A stretch of DNA of 44,833 bases, taken from Desulfamplus magnetovallimortis (lineage in GTDB: Bacteria; Desulfobacterota; Desulfobacteria; Desulfobacterales; Desulfobacteraceae). Shown here piece by piece: positions 1,589 to 16,425 of the stretch. Numbering within the stretch: the stretch's first letter is position 1; the number at the start of each line of letters is the position of its first letter. The notes below the pieces were generated by a model, which was not told the DNA's origin, did no database searches, and worked only from the letters and a program-made list of their open reading frames with translations. The stretch spans positions 163,591 through 208,423 of the forward strand of contig NZ_LT828549.1 of NCBI RefSeq assembly GCF_900170035.1, written 5' to 3'. Position numbers and translations under genes: made by a program.

Positions 1589-1918
1589 TTACATGATTTT
1601 TTCCACAGGTCTTCTTTCCGGTATATATCTGGCTTCAACCCTGCCTTCATGGAGATCCTTTGAAACATAAAGTCCGCAGAAGCATGCACCAAACTCCTTT
1701 GCATCTTCCTCACGATACTCACATGGACATGTTATATCTTTGTCCCATTCACGATCTCCTGAAGCAAGGCGGCATGGACAGGCCATGTAGCCATATCTCT
1801 CCTTGTTTTTTATGAGAGAGTCCAGAAGTTCAAATACAAGATCCTTGTCCTTGTTAAAAAAATAGCCTTTTGGCTCCTGGATTTTTTTAAGGTTTTCATA
1901 GAGTGTCTTAACATCCAT
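1589..1918 (-). CDS. Ferredoxin-thioredoxin reductase catalytic-subunit-like protein
   Basis: A 109-residue protein with the FTR catalytic beta-subunit signature: CPC (about residue 48), CPC (about 65) and CFC (about 80). In the family these cysteines bind a [4Fe-4S] cluster and form the redox-active disulfide that passes electrons from ferredoxin to thioredoxin-like proteins. The start lies only 2 bp after the stop of a glutaredoxin-like gene, so the two are almost certainly cotranscribed, and the glutaredoxin is the obvious thiol partner (inference). No variable (alpha) FTR subunit is seen nearby, as is usual outside oxygenic phototrophs. Confidence 0.85.
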   Translation of the reverse strand: MDVKTLYENLKKIQEPKGYFFNKDKDLVFELLDSLIKNKERYGYMACPCRLASGDREWDKDITCPCEYREEDAKEFGACFCGLYVSKDLHEGRVEARYIPERRPVEKIM

Positions 1919-9702: not shown

Positions 9703-10309
9703 TAATAGTCTCCTTGGGTTTGAATTGATGTTATCAAGTTGATATGTTGCAACAAGGTTTGTCCGTGTTTCATTAAAAAATGTGTGTTTTTTTTATTATA
9801 AAGTCTCCGTAAAATGTTTATATATAACGGCCATGGCATACATATTTGCCACAACGAAGCATGAAAGTCCTTAAAACCTTAAAAGACGGGGACTTTCTTA
9901 TAACATACATGGCGGCATTACCGCCACAATCGAAGAGATGAAAGTCCTGAAACGGCGGGGACTTTCATATAAAAAGACTTTAATTAATTGTTGTGATGTC
10001 TCGTGATCATGAGGTTTTATTAAAAAGTGTGTGTGCTTCATTAAAGATTGTTTGTGTTGAAACAAAGTTGATGTATGGGGCAATCAATTTGATTTATATT
10101 GATTTATGTTATCAAGAAATGTGCCATGGCTGGCAGGAAACTCGCATAAACATTTAAGGATATATTATGATGGGGCTCTCTCCCGCTCCTGACATAAATT
10201 TATTAACAAAAAAAGTCTTATGGTTTACAAAGCAGGCGAAAATAGATAATCTGCCCGTTAAATTTTCATGGCAGTTGATTTTTTTAAATTGAAAAGGAGA
10301 AAAAGTCTC
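9703..10309. other. Intergenic region with family F repeats
   Basis: Divergent region between the zinc-ribbon gene and the flavodiiron gene, so both promoters must be here. It holds two family F units (9795-9970). The remainder is AT-rich and I see no gene or clear operator. AAGGAG at about 10294 is the flavodiiron ribosome binding site. Confidence 0.55.
9795..9970. repeat. Family F repeat (two units)
   Basis: Units run from ATAAAGTCTCCGTAAAATG to GACGGGGACTTTC, and from there to GCGGGGACTTTCAT. Each holds ATGAAAGTCC facing GGACTTTC, forming hairpins; GGCGGCATTACCGCC adds a short perfect stem. Related to 5773-5935. Confidence 0.6.
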
Positions 10310-11512
10310 ATGTTTAAACCTGTTCAGATTGCCGACGGCATCTACTCTGTTGGGTGTCGTGACTGGGATATTCGTGATTTTCATGGATACTCCACATATG
10401 AAGGCACATCATACAATGCATTTTTGATTCTGGATGAAAAGAACGTACTTGTAGATACAGTAAAAAAGGAGTTTACCGATGAACTTCTGGATAATATAAG
10501 CAAGATCATTGATCCTGCAAAAATTGATCTTGTGATAAGCAATCACACCGAGATGGATCACTCAGGTGCGCTTCCTGGTGTAATGCAAAGGATCGGGCAA
10601 GACAAAACTGTCTTATGCTCTAAAATGGGGCTTAAAAATCTGAGAAGCCACTTTACCGGAAGCCTTAATTTAAAGGCGGTTGACAATGGTGAGGAGCTTT
10701 CAATTGGCAAACGCACCCTTACTTTTATTGAGACAAAAATGCTTCACTGGCCGGACAGTATGTTCACTTATATAAAGGATGAAGGCATACTTTTTTCAAG
10801 TGATGCCTTTGGTCAGCACTATGCAGGGGATTGTGCCTTTGATGATGAGATAGGTGATGCAGTTATGGATCATGCTGCAAAGTATTATGCCAATATTTTA
10901 CTTAACTATTCGTCAAGGGTTCAGGATCTGCTTGAAAGCGTAAAGGAGTCCGGCCTTGACATCAGGATGATCTGCCCTGACCACGGTGTGATATGGCGCG
11001 ATGATCCTGGAAAGATTATTGCAGCATATGATCGCTGGAGTCGCCAGGAGTGTGATAAGAAAGCCGTTGTTCTTTTTGATACAATGTGGAGCAGCACAGC
11101 AAAGATGGCAAGGGAGATAGCAAAAGGTATTGAGTCTGTGGATGTAAAGGTACGTCTGATGAATACCCGCAAGTGCCACAGAAGTGATATAATGACCGAG
11201 GTTATGGATGCAACTGCTCTTATTGTTGGCTCTCCGACCCTGAATAATGGCATTTTTCCAGTTGTGGCCGATGTCATGACCTATATAAAAGGCTTAAAGC
11301 CAAAGAATCGCATGGCAGCAGCTTTTGGCTCCTATGGGTGGAGCGGGGAAGCTGTAAAGATTCTTAATCAGGAGTTTGATGCCATGAAGATGGAAATTGT
11401 GGATCAGGGATTTAAAGTTCAGTACGTGCCTAAGAAGGAAGATCTTGACCAATGTTTTGAGCTTGGAAAAAAGATCGGGCTTAAAATTGTGGAAAGAATT
11501 GAAAATAAATAG
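10310..11512 (+). CDS. fprA: Flavodiiron protein (rubredoxin:oxygen oxidoreductase)
   Basis: Reduces oxygen to water, and possibly NO, at a diiron site with electrons from rubredoxin. The 400-residue chain has an N-terminal metallo-beta-lactamase domain with the diiron ligands in NHTEMDH, the His of MLHWPDS, the Asp of SSDAFGQHYAGD and the His of CPDHGVIWR. A C-terminal flavodoxin domain follows (FDTMWSSTAKMA, GSPTLNNGIFP, FGSYGWSGEAV). I chose ATG 10310 because AAGGAG lies ten bases upstream; an in-frame ATG at 10268 would add 14 unconserved residues. No fused rubredoxin is present, so the donor is separate. Confidence 0.93.
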   Translation: MFKPVQIADGIYSVGCRDWDIRDFHGYSTYEGTSYNAFLILDEKNVLVDTVKKEFTDELLDNISKIIDPAKIDLVISNHTEMDHSGALPGVMQRIGQDKTVLCSKMGLKNLRSHFTGSLNLKAVDNGEELSIGKRTLTFIETKMLHWPDSMFTYIKDEGILFSSDAFGQHYAGDCAFDDEIGDAVMDHAAKYYANILLNYSSRVQDLLESVKESGLDIRMICPDHGVIWRDDPGKIIAAYDRWSRQECDKKAVVLFDTMWSSTAKMAREIAKGIESVDVKVRLMNTRKCHRSDIMTEVMDATALIVGSPTLNNGIFPVVADVMTYIKGLKPKNRMAAAFGSYGWSGEAVKILNQEFDAMKMEIVDQGFKVQYVPKKEDLDQCFELGKKIGLKIVERIENK

Positions 11513-11644
11513 ATATACGTAAACGAGCCTCTTTTATTGATAGAATAAACATTAATAACTTAAAATACCCTGCGATAAGAAAAATGAAGGGTGGTTTCAT
11601 GGTAAAATTTATCAATAAAGGATGCCATAAAATTTGGAGTGGAA

Positions 11645-12127
11645 ATGAGCTATAATTTTAGTGCAGATGAAATATTTGAAATGGCAAAACAGATTGAGGT
11701 GAATGGCGCAAAATTCTATAAAGAAGCGGCTGAAAAGGTTCAGGGTGAATCTGAAAAAGAGTTTCTGACAACCCTTGCACATATGGAAGAGAAACATGAA
11801 AAAACCTTTGCAAAGATGCATGAGCAGTTCAAGGCCATTGTAAAGGATAAGGATGAGTCAATGTTTGATCCGGATGGAGAAGCTGTTAGGTATCTTAAGT
11901 CTCTTGCTGATTCAAAAATATTCTTTAAAAAGGATCCTCCAGGGGATACCATGGAAAATATTCTTCACTCAGCAATCAGAGCTGAACAGGACTCTGTTAT
12001 TTTTTATCTTGGAATGTGCGAGCTTGTTTCGGATGAGCTTGGCAAGAACAGGGTTGACAAAATTATAAAAGAAGAGCTGGATCACATTCGTATTCTTTCC
12101 CAGAAAGCAACCGAGATAGGTATTTAA
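11645..12127 (+). CDS. Ferritin-like rubrerythrin-domain protein
   Basis: A 160-residue four-helix-bundle protein with the diiron-binding pattern of rubrerythrins: Glu near residue 18 (AKQIEVNGAKFY), EEKHEKTF, AEQDSVIFY and EELDHIRIL. It lacks the C-terminal rubredoxin domain present in the rubrerythrin at 14519, so it is a minimal ferritin-like diiron protein, probably a peroxidase or iron-handling protein. GGAG five bases before ATG 11645 favours this start over GTG 11639. It sits between the flavodiiron and DsrE-like genes. Confidence 0.82.
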   Translation: MSYNFSADEIFEMAKQIEVNGAKFYKEAAEKVQGESEKEFLTTLAHMEEKHEKTFAKMHEQFKAIVKDKDESMFDPDGEAVRYLKSLADSKIFFKKDPPGDTMENILHSAIRAEQDSVIFYLGMCELVSDELGKNRVDKIIKEELDHIRILSQKATEIGI

Positions 12128-12181
12128 GGAGTGTCAGATGGAAATTTGAATCCATTCCCACGGTAAATAAGGAATAATTTG

Positions 12182-12529
12182 ATGTCAAAAAACGCACTTT
12201 TTGTATTTAACGGAGATTCAATGTGTTTTATTCATGTGCTTCTAAATGCACTTGATATGAACTCTAAGGGAGATGAGGTTAAAGTTATTCTGGAGGGTGC
12301 TTCAGTTAAACTTATTCCGGAGCTTGTTTTATCCGGTAATCCTTTGAATGCATTGTGGAAAAAGACCATTGAAGCTGATCTTGTGGCAGGAGTCTGCAAG
12401 GCATGTGCCCAGAAACTTGGCACGCTCAATGATGCTGTTGCCCAGAATCTGGAACTTCTTGCTGATATGTCAGGTCATGCTGGTATGGCAGCATATCAGA
12501 ATAATGGGTACAATATTATTACATTTTAG
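12182..12529 (+). CDS. DsrE-family-like small protein
   Basis: A 115-residue alpha/beta protein of DsrE/DsrF-like type, with an N-terminal strand ALFVFNGDSM and a VKVILEGASVKLIPEL motif. CKACAQKLG near residue 80 supplies two cysteines where some relatives carry the sulfur-transfer cysteine. AAGGA upstream supports ATG 12182. It is 55 bp downstream of the ferritin-like gene and may share its transcript. It could be a sulfur carrier or a redox-stress accessory protein; function is not fixed by sequence. Confidence 0.7.
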   Translation: MSKNALFVFNGDSMCFIHVLLNALDMNSKGDEVKVILEGASVKLIPELVLSGNPLNALWKKTIEADLVAGVCKACAQKLGTLNDAVAQNLELLADMSGHAGMAAYQNNGYNIITF

Positions 12530-12911: not shown

Positions 12912-13646
12912 TTAGTCAAAAGCCATATCTGTTGTCCAGTCTTTCCAGACATTTCCAACAAGATCAATTCCTGGCTTTAACACCTTTTTGCCTGGCTTCC
13001 ATCCGGATGGTGTGGCCTGGGTGCCTTTAGATTCACGTACAAGCTGGTAAGCCTGGATTTGTCTTAAGGTCTCACTTACATTTCTGCCAACAGGTGGAGT
13101 CAGAACCTCAAAACCCTGGATAATGCCGTCCGGATCAATGAGAAATCTGCCCCTGTTTTCCACACCTGCGTCAGGATCATAAACTCCGTATAGAGTACCG
13201 ATTTTCCCGCCTGCATCGGATAGCATGGGAAATGGTACCCCACCTTTCACCATTTTAGAAAGCTCATGATCGTTCCACATTTTATGGACAAACATGCTGT
13301 CAATACTCATTGAGAGAACTTCAACGCCCAGCTTCTGGAACTCGGGGTATTTTTCAGCAACTGCTGAAATTTCAGTGGCTCATACAAAGGTAAAATCACC
13401 TGGATAAAAGCATAGAACCACCCATTTCCCAAGTTTTTCGGATAGTTTTATATTTACAAAGGCATTTTTATGAAATCCTGCGGCAGTAAAGTCAGGGGCT
13501 TTTTTTCCAACCTGTATAATGTTTCTCTCCTTTTTGATTTCAGGGGTTTTGTTTTGCTCTTCCATTGATGAATCTGTTATTGAAGGTTCAGGTTCTGCAG
13601 GCCCGCTTGATGGTCGCTGGCATCCTGCACTCAGTTCTTCAGACAT
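12912..13646 (-). CDS. prxU: Selenocysteine-containing peroxiredoxin (in-frame TGA at 13382-13380)
   Basis: Reduces hydroperoxides with an active-site selenol. One 244-residue reading frame is interrupted only by TGA at codon 89, exactly where AhpC/Prx proteins have the peroxidatic Cys: FYPGDFTFV-U-ATEIS. Both sides match the family (GKKAPDFTA before; VEVLSMSIDS, GRFLIDPDG and PSGWKPGKK after). A SECIS-like hairpin follows the TGA (13352-13369). The usual resolving Cys of the VCPxxWKPG motif is replaced (ATPSGWKPG), so an external thiol must regenerate it (inference). Residues 1-40 form a Pro/Glu/Ser-rich extension. TCAAGGAGGC lies five bases before the ATG. Selenocysteine peroxiredoxins are known in anaerobes. 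A pseudogene is the alternative but is unlikely given intact flanks. Confidence 0.88.
13352..13382 (-). promoter_or_regulatory. UGA codon and bacterial SECIS-like hairpin
   Basis: On the mRNA strand, UGA (13382-13380) is followed after ten bases by UUUCAGC-AGUU-GCUGAAA, a 7-bp stem with a 4-base loop. The loop begins 17 nt after the UGA and has G as its second base, within the published bacterial SECIS pattern. Not folded by computation here. Confidence 0.75.
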
Positions 13647-14002
13647 GCATGCCTCCTTGATTATAAGAGTTTGTTTTTGGGTAATGGCTCACATTTGTTG
13701 ATATAAATAAACCCTTTTCTCTATCAATGGCACATCAACAGATCCAAGGGTTTCAAAAAAAAGCCTTTCTGGCATCATTCATTTGTGACGGTTATCCATC
13801 ATGTATGTTGCTTAACTTACAATCGACACCTTATTGCTTTGTCAGCACTCATTGCATTTGTCTGAATCAGGATACCCAGGATGAAAAGGATGTTCAGGAT
13901 AGCTAATCCTGTCTTATCCTGTTAATCTCGGGTATCCTGATTCAGATATTGACAAGGCTCAGAAGCTCATAGATGTCGAATTTGAGTACTTAAATCCCTT
14001 TC
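13647..14002. other. Intergenic gap with family C repeat
   Basis: No gene is seen. The gap contains the peroxiredoxin ribosome binding site (TCAAGGAGGC) close to its start and a family C element (13821-13987) that may also terminate the desulfoferrodoxin transcript, since it forms a large stem (inference). Confidence 0.55.
13821..13987. repeat. Family C palindromic repeat (copy 1)
   Basis: Ends AATCGACACCTTATTGC and ATAGATGTCGAATTTGAGT. The inner long palindrome runs from CTGAATCAGGATACCCAGGA to GGGTATCCTGATTCAG with GATAGCTAATCCTG at its centre. Same design as 23620, 33366 and 44703. Confidence 0.8.
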
Positions 14003-14377
14003 CTATGCTTTCCAGAATCCATGCAGATTGCAGAATTCACGGGCAGTGACATTCTGTGCATCTGTGATAAATGTGGCTTCAGGCTTATCTCCTGGTTTTA
14101 GGAATTTTCTGTAAACCATGCCTTCTGCATTAAGCTCAATCCATTCGATTAGGTGCTTTTCTTCCATTGGATGGGCAACGCTGCCCACTTTGACAAGATA
14201 GCCACCTTCAATTTTTTCAATTACCGGAACATGTTTTTCAAGTGCTGCATCCACTGTGTTTTCAGTAAGCAGTGTCATGGGCTGGTTGCAGCAGCTCATT
14301 GGGGGTTTTGCTGCATGAAGAACCTCTGCGATGTTTCCACATTTTTCACATTTGTAAATTGCCAGTTTTTCCGCCAT
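14003..14377 (-). CDS. dfx: Desulfoferrodoxin (superoxide reductase, 2Fe type)
   Basis: Reduces superoxide to hydrogen peroxide without making oxygen. The 124-residue protein has both iron sites: desulforedoxin-like center I with Cys10, Cys13, Cys29 and Cys30, and superoxide-reductase center II with His49, His69, His75, Cys116 and His119 (motifs [23 protein letters not shown]). AAGGAG is eight bases before the ATG. It lies downstream of rubrerythrin and the rubredoxin-reductase-like gene on the same strand, so the peroxide it makes can be removed by rubrerythrin and the nearby peroxiredoxin. Confidence 0.96.
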
Positions 14378-14518: not shown

Positions 14519-15097
14519 TTAATAGTTTTCACCAAGTAACTCGAAGTGTGCCTGGGGATGTGCGCATGCAGGACACTCCACTGGTGCAGAATCACCTTCA
14601 TGTGTATAGCCGCAGTTTCTGCATCGCCATGTAACACCTTGGCTACGTTTGAAAACTCTATCATTCTCTATATTGGCTTTCAGGTCAAGGAATCTTTTTT
14701 CATGCTGTTTTTCAGCCACGGCAATTGCCATGAATACTGCTGCAATGTCGTTGAATCCCTCTTCTTTTGCTGTTGTTGCAAATTCCGGATACATGCTGGT
14801 ATGTTCATGGTGTTCTCCTGCGGCAGATGCTGCAAGATTATCCACAGTTGTCCCTATGTTTCCAGCAGGAAAGGCGGCTGTTATCTCAATCTCTTCACCA
14901 GTTGTCAGGAACTTGAACAGCCTTTTGGCATGTTCTTTCTCCTGGTTGGCAGTCTCTTCAAAGATATCTGCCATCTGAACATAACCTTCTTTTTTTGCCA
15001 CGCTTGCAAAATAGGTGTATCTGTTTCTGGCCTGGGACTCACCTGCAAAGGCCATCAGTATGTTTTTTTCGGTTTTGCTTCCCTTTAATTCAGGCAT
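14519..15097 (-). CDS. rbr: Rubrerythrin
   Basis: Diiron peroxidase of anaerobes that reduces hydrogen peroxide with electrons from rubredoxin or its reductase. The 192-residue protein has a ferritin-like N-terminal domain with ligands Glu20, Glu53, His56, Glu95 and Glu129/His132 (motifs AGESQARNRY, ETANQEKEHAKR, AVAEKQHEKRF). A C-terminal rubredoxin domain carries Cys159, Cys162, Cys175 and Cys178 (WRCRNCGY and VECPACAHPQAHF). The ATG overlaps the last base of the upstream flavoprotein stop codon (TAATG), indicating translational coupling. Length is typical of the family. Confidence 0.96.
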   Translation of the reverse strand: MPELKGSKTEKNILMAFAGESQARNRYTYFASVAKKEGYVQMADIFEETANQEKEHAKRLFKFLTTGEEIEITAAFPAGNIGTTVDNLAASAAGEHHEHTSMYPEFATTAKEEGFNDIAAVFMAIAVAEKQHEKRFLDLKANIENDRVFKRSQGVTWRCRNCGYTHEGDSAPVECPACAHPQAHFELLGENY

Positions 15098-16425
15098 TAC
15101 TGTGATTCTCCTTTGATCGTTTTTACAATTTTATTAAAATCTGTGGTATCACCAACCATTATGCAGCCGATGATTTTCCCATTGTGATCCTTGACGATTT
15201 TTTTATAGACGGTATCAGTTGAAGTTATATTGCACTCCATTTTTCCGTCAACATCTATCTCTCCTGCGGATGCAAGAGATATGCCAGCAACTTTCAGGAC
15301 ATTGGACGGAGGGATGTTTTTGTAAACAGCACTTCCTCCGGCCATGTTGATGCCAGCAACCCTTCCCTGTTCTGTGGCTTCCGGCCAGATGGAAAAGTTG
15401 ACTCCCATAAACTCTGCCACATCTCCGGCAGCATAAACAGAAGGCAGTGATGTCTCCATCCGTTCATTTACCACAATGCCTTTATCTGTTTTAACAGCAT
15501 ATTGATTGTCTCCGGACTTTTTGGAGTTATATCCATTTATTTCAGATTCTTTTGTGCTGCATATATCTATGTCTGATTTTTTTGTGCTGTATTCATTTTT
15601 TTCTGACTCTTTTGCGTCGTGCTTATTTGTGTCAGGCCCTTTTGCAAGGGTGATATCCGCTCTTACACCTGATGAGAATATAACAAGATCAGCCTGTAAT
15701 ATATGGCCGGATTTAAGTTTTACAAGCTTTGGTGGCGCAGAATGGTCATACTCCCTGTTTTCTGATGCTTTTGAGTTTTTGGGATATTTCTCTTTGATCT
15801 CTTCAGTCACCTCTCCGAGCATAAATGTCAAACCGTTTTTCTCAAGAAGTCTCTGGAGTCGGCAAGCTCCCTCTTTATCAAGTTGGCGTGGAAGAAGTCT
15901 TTCAAAGAACTCCACCACAGTAACCTTATGTCCTGAGAGCCCAAGTGAAGAGGCAGTCTCAATGCCAAGAAGCCCTCCACCAATAACTACAATATTTAAT
16001 GGTTCTTGACAAATCTGCACTATTTTATCTGCATCTTCAATATTTCTGAGGGTCAATATACCCTCTGTTTCTCCTCCTTTCACAGGCGGGATAAAAGGTG
16101 TGCTGCCTGTTGATATTAATACTTTGTCATAATTAAAAAATTTTCCGTTTGATGCCAAAGCCTTTTTATTTGTAAAATCAATTTGTTTTATGGTCGTGTC
16201 TGTAATAAGTTCAATATTGTTGCGTGTATGCCACTCCTTTGATTTTATTATAAGGCGTTCTTTTTCAACTTTTCCACAAAGATATTCAGGGAGTCTTATA
16301 CGGCTGTATATTGGAAAATTTTCACTTGTGATCAGCGTTATTTTGCAATTTTGATCAATTTTTCTAATATTTTCCGAAGCAGTTGTTCCTGCTGTTCCAT
16401 TTCCAATGATAAGGTACTGTTTCAT
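15097..16425 (-). CDS. NAD(P)/FAD-dependent oxidoreductase, rubredoxin-reductase-like
   Basis: Pyridine-nucleotide disulfide oxidoreductase family (class I flavoprotein), 442 residues. It has the FAD-binding IIGNGTAGTTA near residue 7, the NAD-binding VIGGGLLGIE near 146, the VYAAGDVAEF FAD motif and a C-terminal substrate-binding domain like NirB/rubredoxin reductases. The gene is translationally coupled to rubrerythrin, so a role as electron donor to rubrerythrin (via rubredoxin) is likely. Before the ISLPSVYAAGDV-type segment the protein carries four tandem 10-residue repeats (coding bases 15496-15615), absent from typical relatives. The start is weakly supported (GAGAG only). Confidence 0.85.
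   Translation of the reverse strand: MKQYLIIGNGTAGTTASENIRKIDQNCKITLITSENFPIYSRIRLPEYLCGKVEKERLIIKSKEWHTRNNIELITDTTIKQIDFTNKKALASNGKFFNYDKVLISTGSTPFIPPVKGGETEGILTLRNIEDADKIVQICQEPLNIVVIGGGLLGIETASSLGLSGHKVTVVEFFERLLPRQLDKEGACRLQRLLEKNGLTFMLGEVTEEIKEKYPKNSKASENREYDHSAPPKLVKLKSGHILQADLVIFSSGVRADITLAKGPDTNKHDAKESEKNEYSTKKSDIDICSTKESEINGYNSKKSGDNQYAVKTDKGIVVNERMETSLPSVYAAGDVAEFMGVNFSIWPEATEQGRVAGINMAGGSAVYKNIPPSNVLKVAGISLASAGEIDVDGKMECNITSTDTVYKKIVKDHNGKIIGCIMVGDTTDFNKIVKTIKGESQ
15496..15615 (-). repeat. Four tandem 30-bp repeats in the flavoprotein gene
   Basis: Encodes AKESEKNEYS, TKKSDIDICS, TKESEINGYN and SKKSGDNQYA: a degenerate 10-residue unit with pattern xK[EK]S[EDG]x[ND]x[YC], four copies, inserted in a loop between the NAD domain and the last FAD motif. 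Confidence 0.8.

Follow-up and report, generated by a model that had tools for sequence, protein, structure and literature searches.

Results

prxU, a peroxiredoxin gene with an in-frame UGA

We analysed a 44,833-nucleotide stretch of the Desulfamplus magnetovallimortis genome (hereafter, the window), in which two minus-strand open reading frames, at 13380–13646 (88 codons and a TGA) and 12912–13310, share one frame. When the TGA is read as selenocysteine (Sec), the two join into a protein of 244 residues with Sec at position 89, and the next stop is the terminal TAA. This gene, prxU (12912–13646, minus strand), begins with an ATG at 13646 that is preceded, at a distance of 5 nt, by the Shine-Dalgarno (SD) sequence AAGGAGG (13652–13658, minus strand). 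The promoter and terminator scan returned two and one candidates, respectively, against 3.1 and 1.1 in shuffled sequences, which corresponds to chance level. A sequence-only reading of this DNA had joined the two frames into one gene, and the single frame, the lack of any other stop and the PrxU family score all agree with it; the interval that it had assigned, 13352–13646, takes in the start of the gene and ends at the edge of a hairpin, and the gene itself runs on to 12912. Six other TGA-spanning frames of the window passed a filter for a first Met and exactly one TGA; as the same filter misses prxU itself, its list is no measure of absence.

The joined protein scored 409 bits against the curated NCBIfam family NF040737 (peroxi_PrxU), for which the cut-off is 270, so that the comparison with AhpC/Prx and PrxU proteins recommended in the earlier reading led to an established family. 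This match is near full-length, with residues 7–241 corresponding to positions 2–233 of the 233-position model, and includes the N-terminal arm described below. The protein also matched the AhpC-TSA and 1-cysPrx_C families of Pfam, and the solved chains closest to it in sequence are AhpC/Prx1-type peroxiredoxins. Its score against the NCBIfam AhpC family TIGR03137 was 185 bits, below the cut-off of 272. PrxU occurs once in this genome, which also encodes two distant relatives that contain no stop.

The selenocysteine codon and its SECIS hairpin

The TGA occupies codon 89 (13380–13382, minus strand), at the peroxidatic position of an active-site loop of the form PxxxTxxU and in the context FYPGDFTFV-U-ATE, just where the catalytic Cys had been proposed to be replaced. 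Our scan for relatives, limited to one genome per species, found 322, and in the best 80 of these, which were kept, the homologous codon is TGA without exception. The genes of Sec incorporation, which the earlier reading had named as a check, are present in the same genome: selA (596 bits), selB (362 bits), selD (370 bits) and the tRNA-Sec (76.6 bits; ARAGORN anticodon tca) each scored above the respective cut-off. The selD gene (contig C7:116941-117864) has one in-frame TGA of its own, as in Sec-containing SelD.

A 7-bp hairpin with an AGUU loop lies 10 nt after the UGA (13352–13369, minus strand), as previously read from the sequence, and the covariation of its pairs at third codon positions marks it as a bacterial SECIS element. 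The 52-nt hairpin stretch folds with −9.3 kcal/mol (z −2.19), a value reached by 3 of 200 shuffles. Because the Rfam scan of the window returned no family at the gathering score, the SECIS was judged by covariation instead. Eight pairs, those of the stem (seven) and the one that closes the loop, give 648 cells over the window and its 80 relatives; of these, 635 are Watson-Crick, whereas 2000 shuffles of the 3′ arms among sequences averaged 520.9 (sd 8.0, maximum 547); as this count takes identical hairpins repeatedly, the 17 distinct hairpins were also counted alone, giving 127 of 136 against 102.4 ± 3.9 (maximum 118). All pairs are formed in 74 of the 81 hairpins, the other seven having a broken pair. 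The pair at the Ser/Ala third base is A-T in 42, G-C in 33, T-A in three, C-G in two and G-T in one, variation that is nearly all protein-silent, and the loop reads AGTT in 43 sequences and GGTC in 38. In the phylum sample, part of which is shared with the 80 relatives, 98 of the 106 Sec rows and none of the nine Cys rows have one of these two loops at the corresponding position, and a simple stem scan of the 106 Sec rows gave at least 7 bp in 71 and at most 4 bp in 17.

Based on the TGA in the relatives kept, the PrxU score, the covariation of the hairpin and the Sec machinery of the genome, we assign prxU as a Sec peroxiredoxin, which is a known kind, and regard the Sec reading of codon 89 as settled, short of a selenium measurement. 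An ordinary broken gene, with the TGA as a nonsense mutation, would likewise present a lone TGA that splits the frame, but the conservation of this codon in 80 of 80 relatives, the covarying hairpin and the presence of the Sec machinery leave that explanation with practically no probability, and we reject it. Homologues with Cys at this site, which the earlier reading had considered a possible sign that the TGA is a lone mutation, do not occur among these 80.

The N-terminal arm and candidate resolving residues

Typical 2-Cys AhpC/Prx1 enzymes share the domain and the active-site motif of the window protein and combine a peroxidatic Cys with a C-terminal resolving Cys, whereas the window protein has Sec and Thr212 in these places. 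The C-terminal resolving Cys (xVCPxxW) is absent from the window protein, in which Thr212 (13011–13013, minus strand) aligns to this position in the EVCPAGW of AcePrx-1; across the window and its 80 relatives, the position is Thr in 79 and Ala in two. Exactly two Cys accompany the Sec in all 81 proteins, Cys9 and Cys79. Cys9 (codon 13620–13622) is part of a CxRP motif in a conserved N-terminal arm peptide (residues 1–19; 13590–13646, minus strand): Cys9, Arg11 and Pro12 are invariant in the 81 near relatives and the linker behind them varies freely. Cys79 (13410–13412, minus strand) falls in a predicted strand before the active-site loop. The AlphaFold model has a mean pLDDT of 64, and residues 1–43 lie below 50, so that the arm is not resolved in it. 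The PrxU of Eubacterium acidaminophilum has 203 residues and would accordingly be without an N-terminal arm.

The phylum-wide search with the family model gave some match in 263 of 297 genomes and a match above the PrxU cut-off in 95. Ten loci of this search, 105 further stretches (near full-length matches and selected shorter ones) and the 80 relatives formed a wider set, which was reduced from 196 to 187 distinct proteins when nine identical ones were dropped; L214, the window's own copy, was dropped. More than 30 residues precede the core in 155 of the 187, and 152 of these carry a Cys in the first 24 residues, a figure that is partly circular in that an N-terminal extension of this length containing a Cys was itself the criterion for the arm set. 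The three others (L111, L133 and L137) have unrelated N-terminal stretches. All 152 arm-bearing rows have Cys79, and their active site holds Sec in 151 and Cys in one; the C-terminal resolving Cys is retained in five, and two further rows have a Cys at place 234. The 152 genes encode Cys9 by TGC in 79 and TGT in 73 and Arg11 by six codons, and this mixture of synonymous codons at both positions indicates that the arm is conserved as protein sequence.

The 35 other rows comprise 19 with the C-terminal Cys, six with Cys at place 234, five with PCGW (two residues on) and five with none of these, namely L137, which is distant, L155, and the entirely Cys-free L122, L126 and L128. L122, L126 and L128 are Sec peroxiredoxins without an arm in which FYGGDYTFVU replaces FYPGDFTFVU, and two of their genomes (G207 and G230) contain, in addition, a match to PrxU of nearly full length. 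L155 is a prxU gene that has both the arm and the Sec TGA, and a further in-frame stop, TAG, interrupts its core, reflecting either an error or decay.

A quick tree, which took every fifth (16) of the 79 distinct near relatives and left out L155, placed 102 rows in an arm clade (support 95) beside short Sec peroxiredoxins that keep the C-terminal Cys. Rows without the arm fall inside this clade, and the tree warns of long branches. The independent-pairs test of arm against C-terminal Cys yielded two starred pairs (sign test, median p 1), and for Cys79 an average of 1.9 out of 2 independent pairs change along with the arm, which is non-significant. Phylogenetic pairing of the arm with either the C-terminal Cys or Cys79 was set aside, as the independent events are too few.

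A putative second start within arm-bearing genes

The linker of the window gene contains an internal SD sequence, AAGGAG (13527–13532, minus strand), located 6 nt before codon 43, which reads ATT (13518–13520). Counting as SD at least five bases of AAGGAGG placed 4–11 nt before an ATG at the linker's end, we identified an internal ATG with SD in 147 of the 152 arm-bearing genes (75 of 79 near relatives and 72 of 72 in the phylum sample). The five exceptions are the window gene with its AAGGAG and ATT, L051 with GTG, and L040, L048 and L076, which have an ATG without SD. The internal spacing is exactly 8 nt in 96 genes, and 127 of the 152 have an SD at both starts. Of 13 arm-less rows inspected, 10 begin at the codon-43 place with an SD, and the other three have an SD before the next Met.

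Codon 43 is accompanied by an SD in 141 of 152 genes against 34.1 (sd 4.6, maximum 54) in 500 same-gene synonymous redraws, a post hoc comparison on the same genes for which the SD pattern had been tightened after a looser first look. By the same pattern, 24 of 817 downstream internal Met codons have an SD. We also compared codon usage between alignment columns, a control that keeps phylogeny and is independent of the SD pattern, although its columns were chosen because of that pattern: the Glu column of the motif is GAG in 0.90 of 115, against 0.24–0.59 in 13 other Glu columns (those with Glu in at least 55% of genes), and the Lys column is AAG in 0.91 of 87, against 0.15–0.69 in 14 other Lys columns. 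As SD-like six-mers are also found at other sites in 94 of the 152 genes (203 hits, of which 169 lie 180 nt or more downstream of codon 43), the argument rests not on the motif, which by itself proves nothing, but on its constant position ahead of an ATG.

Genomic setting of prxU

The minus-strand neighbours of prxU in the window are a desulfoferrodoxin (superoxide reductase; 14003–14377; TIGR00320 over cut-off), a rubrerythrin (14519–15097; NF045767 over cut-off) and an NAD(P)H:rubredoxin-type oxidoreductase, a rubredoxin-reductase-like flavoprotein (15097–16425; Pyr_redox_2 and Rubredoxin_C). On the plus strand, we identified a flavodiiron protein (10268–11512; ODP and flavodoxin domains) and, by domain match, a rubrerythrin-like protein (11639–12127) and a DsrE-like protein (12179–12529). 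The desulfoferrodoxin, rubrerythrin and flavodiiron neighbours bear out the earlier description of an oxygen-defence cluster suited to a peroxidase; the cluster fits oxygen defence and names no reductant. The earlier reading also called this setting new, but it is not unique: Desulfocicer vacuolatum DSM 3385 has a prxU that is 83% identical in the same kind of cluster, with homologues of six window neighbours nearby.

This was the one locus among the 80 of the relatives in which the cluster was found again. Individually, the flavodiiron protein, the desulfoferrodoxin and the rubrerythrin-like protein recur in one locus each, rubrerythrin in three, the DsrE-like protein in four and the flavoprotein in 15, counts that are lower bounds with 34 of the 80 loci reaching at least 12 kb. 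The commonest neighbour, present in 16 of the 80 loci and just upstream on the same strand in eight of those, is a CoA-disulfide-reductase-like flavoprotein (named by eye from its sequence), which is a possible electron donor. Given how seldom either the oxygen cluster (one locus) or this commonest neighbour (16 loci) accompanies prxU in the 80, gene neighbourhood was rejected as a clue to the reductase.

Two other genes were noted. In L101, L108 and five loci at position +1 (e.g., L066), a PrxQ/Bcp-like split open reading frame with a hydrophobic N-terminus and the motif FYPKDDTxxU lies beside prxU as an apparent second Sec gene. At 1589–1918 (minus strand), the window encodes a ferredoxin-thioredoxin reductase catalytic chain (PF02943), which is related to the NCBI FtrB double-selenoprotein family at 53 bits, below the cut-off of 160.

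Discussion

Sec peroxiredoxins with a TxxU motif are listed among the prokaryotic selenoprotein families, with PrxU of Eubacterium acidaminophilum credited to Soehling et al. 2001 (PMC13188914, PMC9312934); this enzyme likewise has Sec at the peroxidatic place, as the TxxU of the review tables indicates. For sulfate reducers, such proteins are reported from Desulfococcus multivorans (PMC5109826) and, in PMC4046663, from Desulfotignum phosphitoxidans and D. autotrophicum, either under the name PrxU or, in one case, as a gene divided between two open reading frames, in keeping with the earlier reading's remark that the family is not new. These proteins are of the same kind as that of the window, and the relevant passages give no residue-level account of them. 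The comparison in PMC4046663 records PrxU in only two of its sulfate reducers, and the relatives found here span many more Desulfobacteraceae and kin. The name and description of the NF040737 entry, as displayed, mention neither the arm Cys nor the internal start. We found no account of an N-terminal resolving Cys or an internal start in a bacterial Sec peroxiredoxin in the open-access literature, which leaves most subscription papers outside and is weak evidence of novelty; the Sec peroxiredoxin family is known, and the arm Cys and the conserved second start are the features that we did not find described. These two features and the lack of the C-terminal resolving Cys had also escaped the earlier reading.

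We consider it very probable that prxU encodes a peroxide-reducing, presumably cytoplasmic enzyme in which UGA89 is decoded as Sec through the hairpin, and we propose that Cys9 serves in resolution and that the activity is protective against oxygen. SelB and the Sec-tRNA would decode this UGA with the aid of the adjacent downstream hairpin, and Sec89 in the PxxxTxxU loop would attack peroxide to form a selenenic acid. Cys9 on the presumably flexible arm would in turn attack the oxidised selenium, either within one subunit or between neighbouring ones; the bond would then be handed over, perhaps to Cys79, and the enzyme would be regenerated by a thioredoxin-like reductant. Beside desulfoferrodoxin and rubrerythrin, such a peroxidase may protect this anaerobe during brief contact with oxygen. 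In most arm-bearing relatives, the second in-gene start would also give rise to an arm-less form; the window gene has ATT at this place.

The role of Cys9 as resolving residue, which we infer from its conservation, has to be weighed against two other readings of the same residues. The enzyme may be a Sec-only peroxidase of the 1-Cys type, in which an outside thiol or redoxin reduces the selenium and Cys9 serves in docking or metal binding. The loss of the C-terminal resolving Cys and the match of the tail to 1-cysPrx_C fit such an enzyme, as do the three relatives without any Cys that keep the Sec and the overall sequence. The strict invariance of Cys9, Arg11 and Pro12 next to a freely varying linker speaks against it, and so does the make-up of the 16 remaining rows that lack the C-terminal Cys, six with Cys at place 234 and five with PCGW; we therefore rate a Sec-only enzyme as rather unlikely. 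Alternatively, Cys79, ten residues before Sec89, might resolve the selenium alone or end a Sec89-Cys9-Cys79 relay. Its presence throughout the arm-bearing rows and in eight of the 35 others (one of them the arm-bearing gene cut by TAG) agrees with this, and it tracks the arm in nearly every independent pair, but two pairs cannot reach significance, the residue sits in a predicted strand, and six arm-less rows combine Cys79 with the C-terminal resolving Cys. We assign this role of Cys79 a similarly low, though not negligible, probability.

As regards the internal start, the likeliest interpretation of these comparisons is that it represents the ancestral start, still in use, which would give armed and arm-less isoforms; this dual start would be a property of the family and is doubtful for the window gene. 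We advance more tentatively, at somewhat less than an even chance, that each arm-bearing prxU gene specifies two selenoproteins, one nested in the other: a long form in which the resolving Cys has moved to the arm (Cys9, in a triad with Cys79 and Sec89) and a short form with Sec and no arm. On this reading, the proportion of the two subunits in the oligomer would determine how oxidised selenium is resolved, and the window species would have lost the short-form ATG or would use AUU in its place. The AAGGAGG-ATG element could instead be unused as a start, acting as a pausing signal or persisting as a relic of the ancestral start. Inheritance is plausible given that arm-less relatives start here behind an SD of this type, and in the window gene ATT stands in for the ATG of this putative start. 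A relic would be expected to decay, yet the Glu and Lys columns of the motif stay almost uniformly GAG and AAG; a pausing signal would need no ATG; and an ATG with SD is nearly universal in arm-bearing genes, as opposed to the rare SD before downstream internal Met codons. We thus regard an unused element as unlikely, and favour the use of the internal ATG as a start in the relatives that have it.

Gene callers that stop at UGA split genes of this kind, and the peroxidase family is therefore easily missed, even though it exceeds the PrxU cut-off in 95 of the 297 phylum genomes sampled, some of these matches being Cys or arm-less forms. If the arm resolves selenium, it would constitute an N-terminal place for the resolving residue, and enzymes with the C-terminal Cys, with both or with the arm only would form a natural series in which to study resolution. 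Should the internal start prove functional, a single UGA with its SECIS would serve two isoforms, representing a conserved dual start in a selenoprotein gene.
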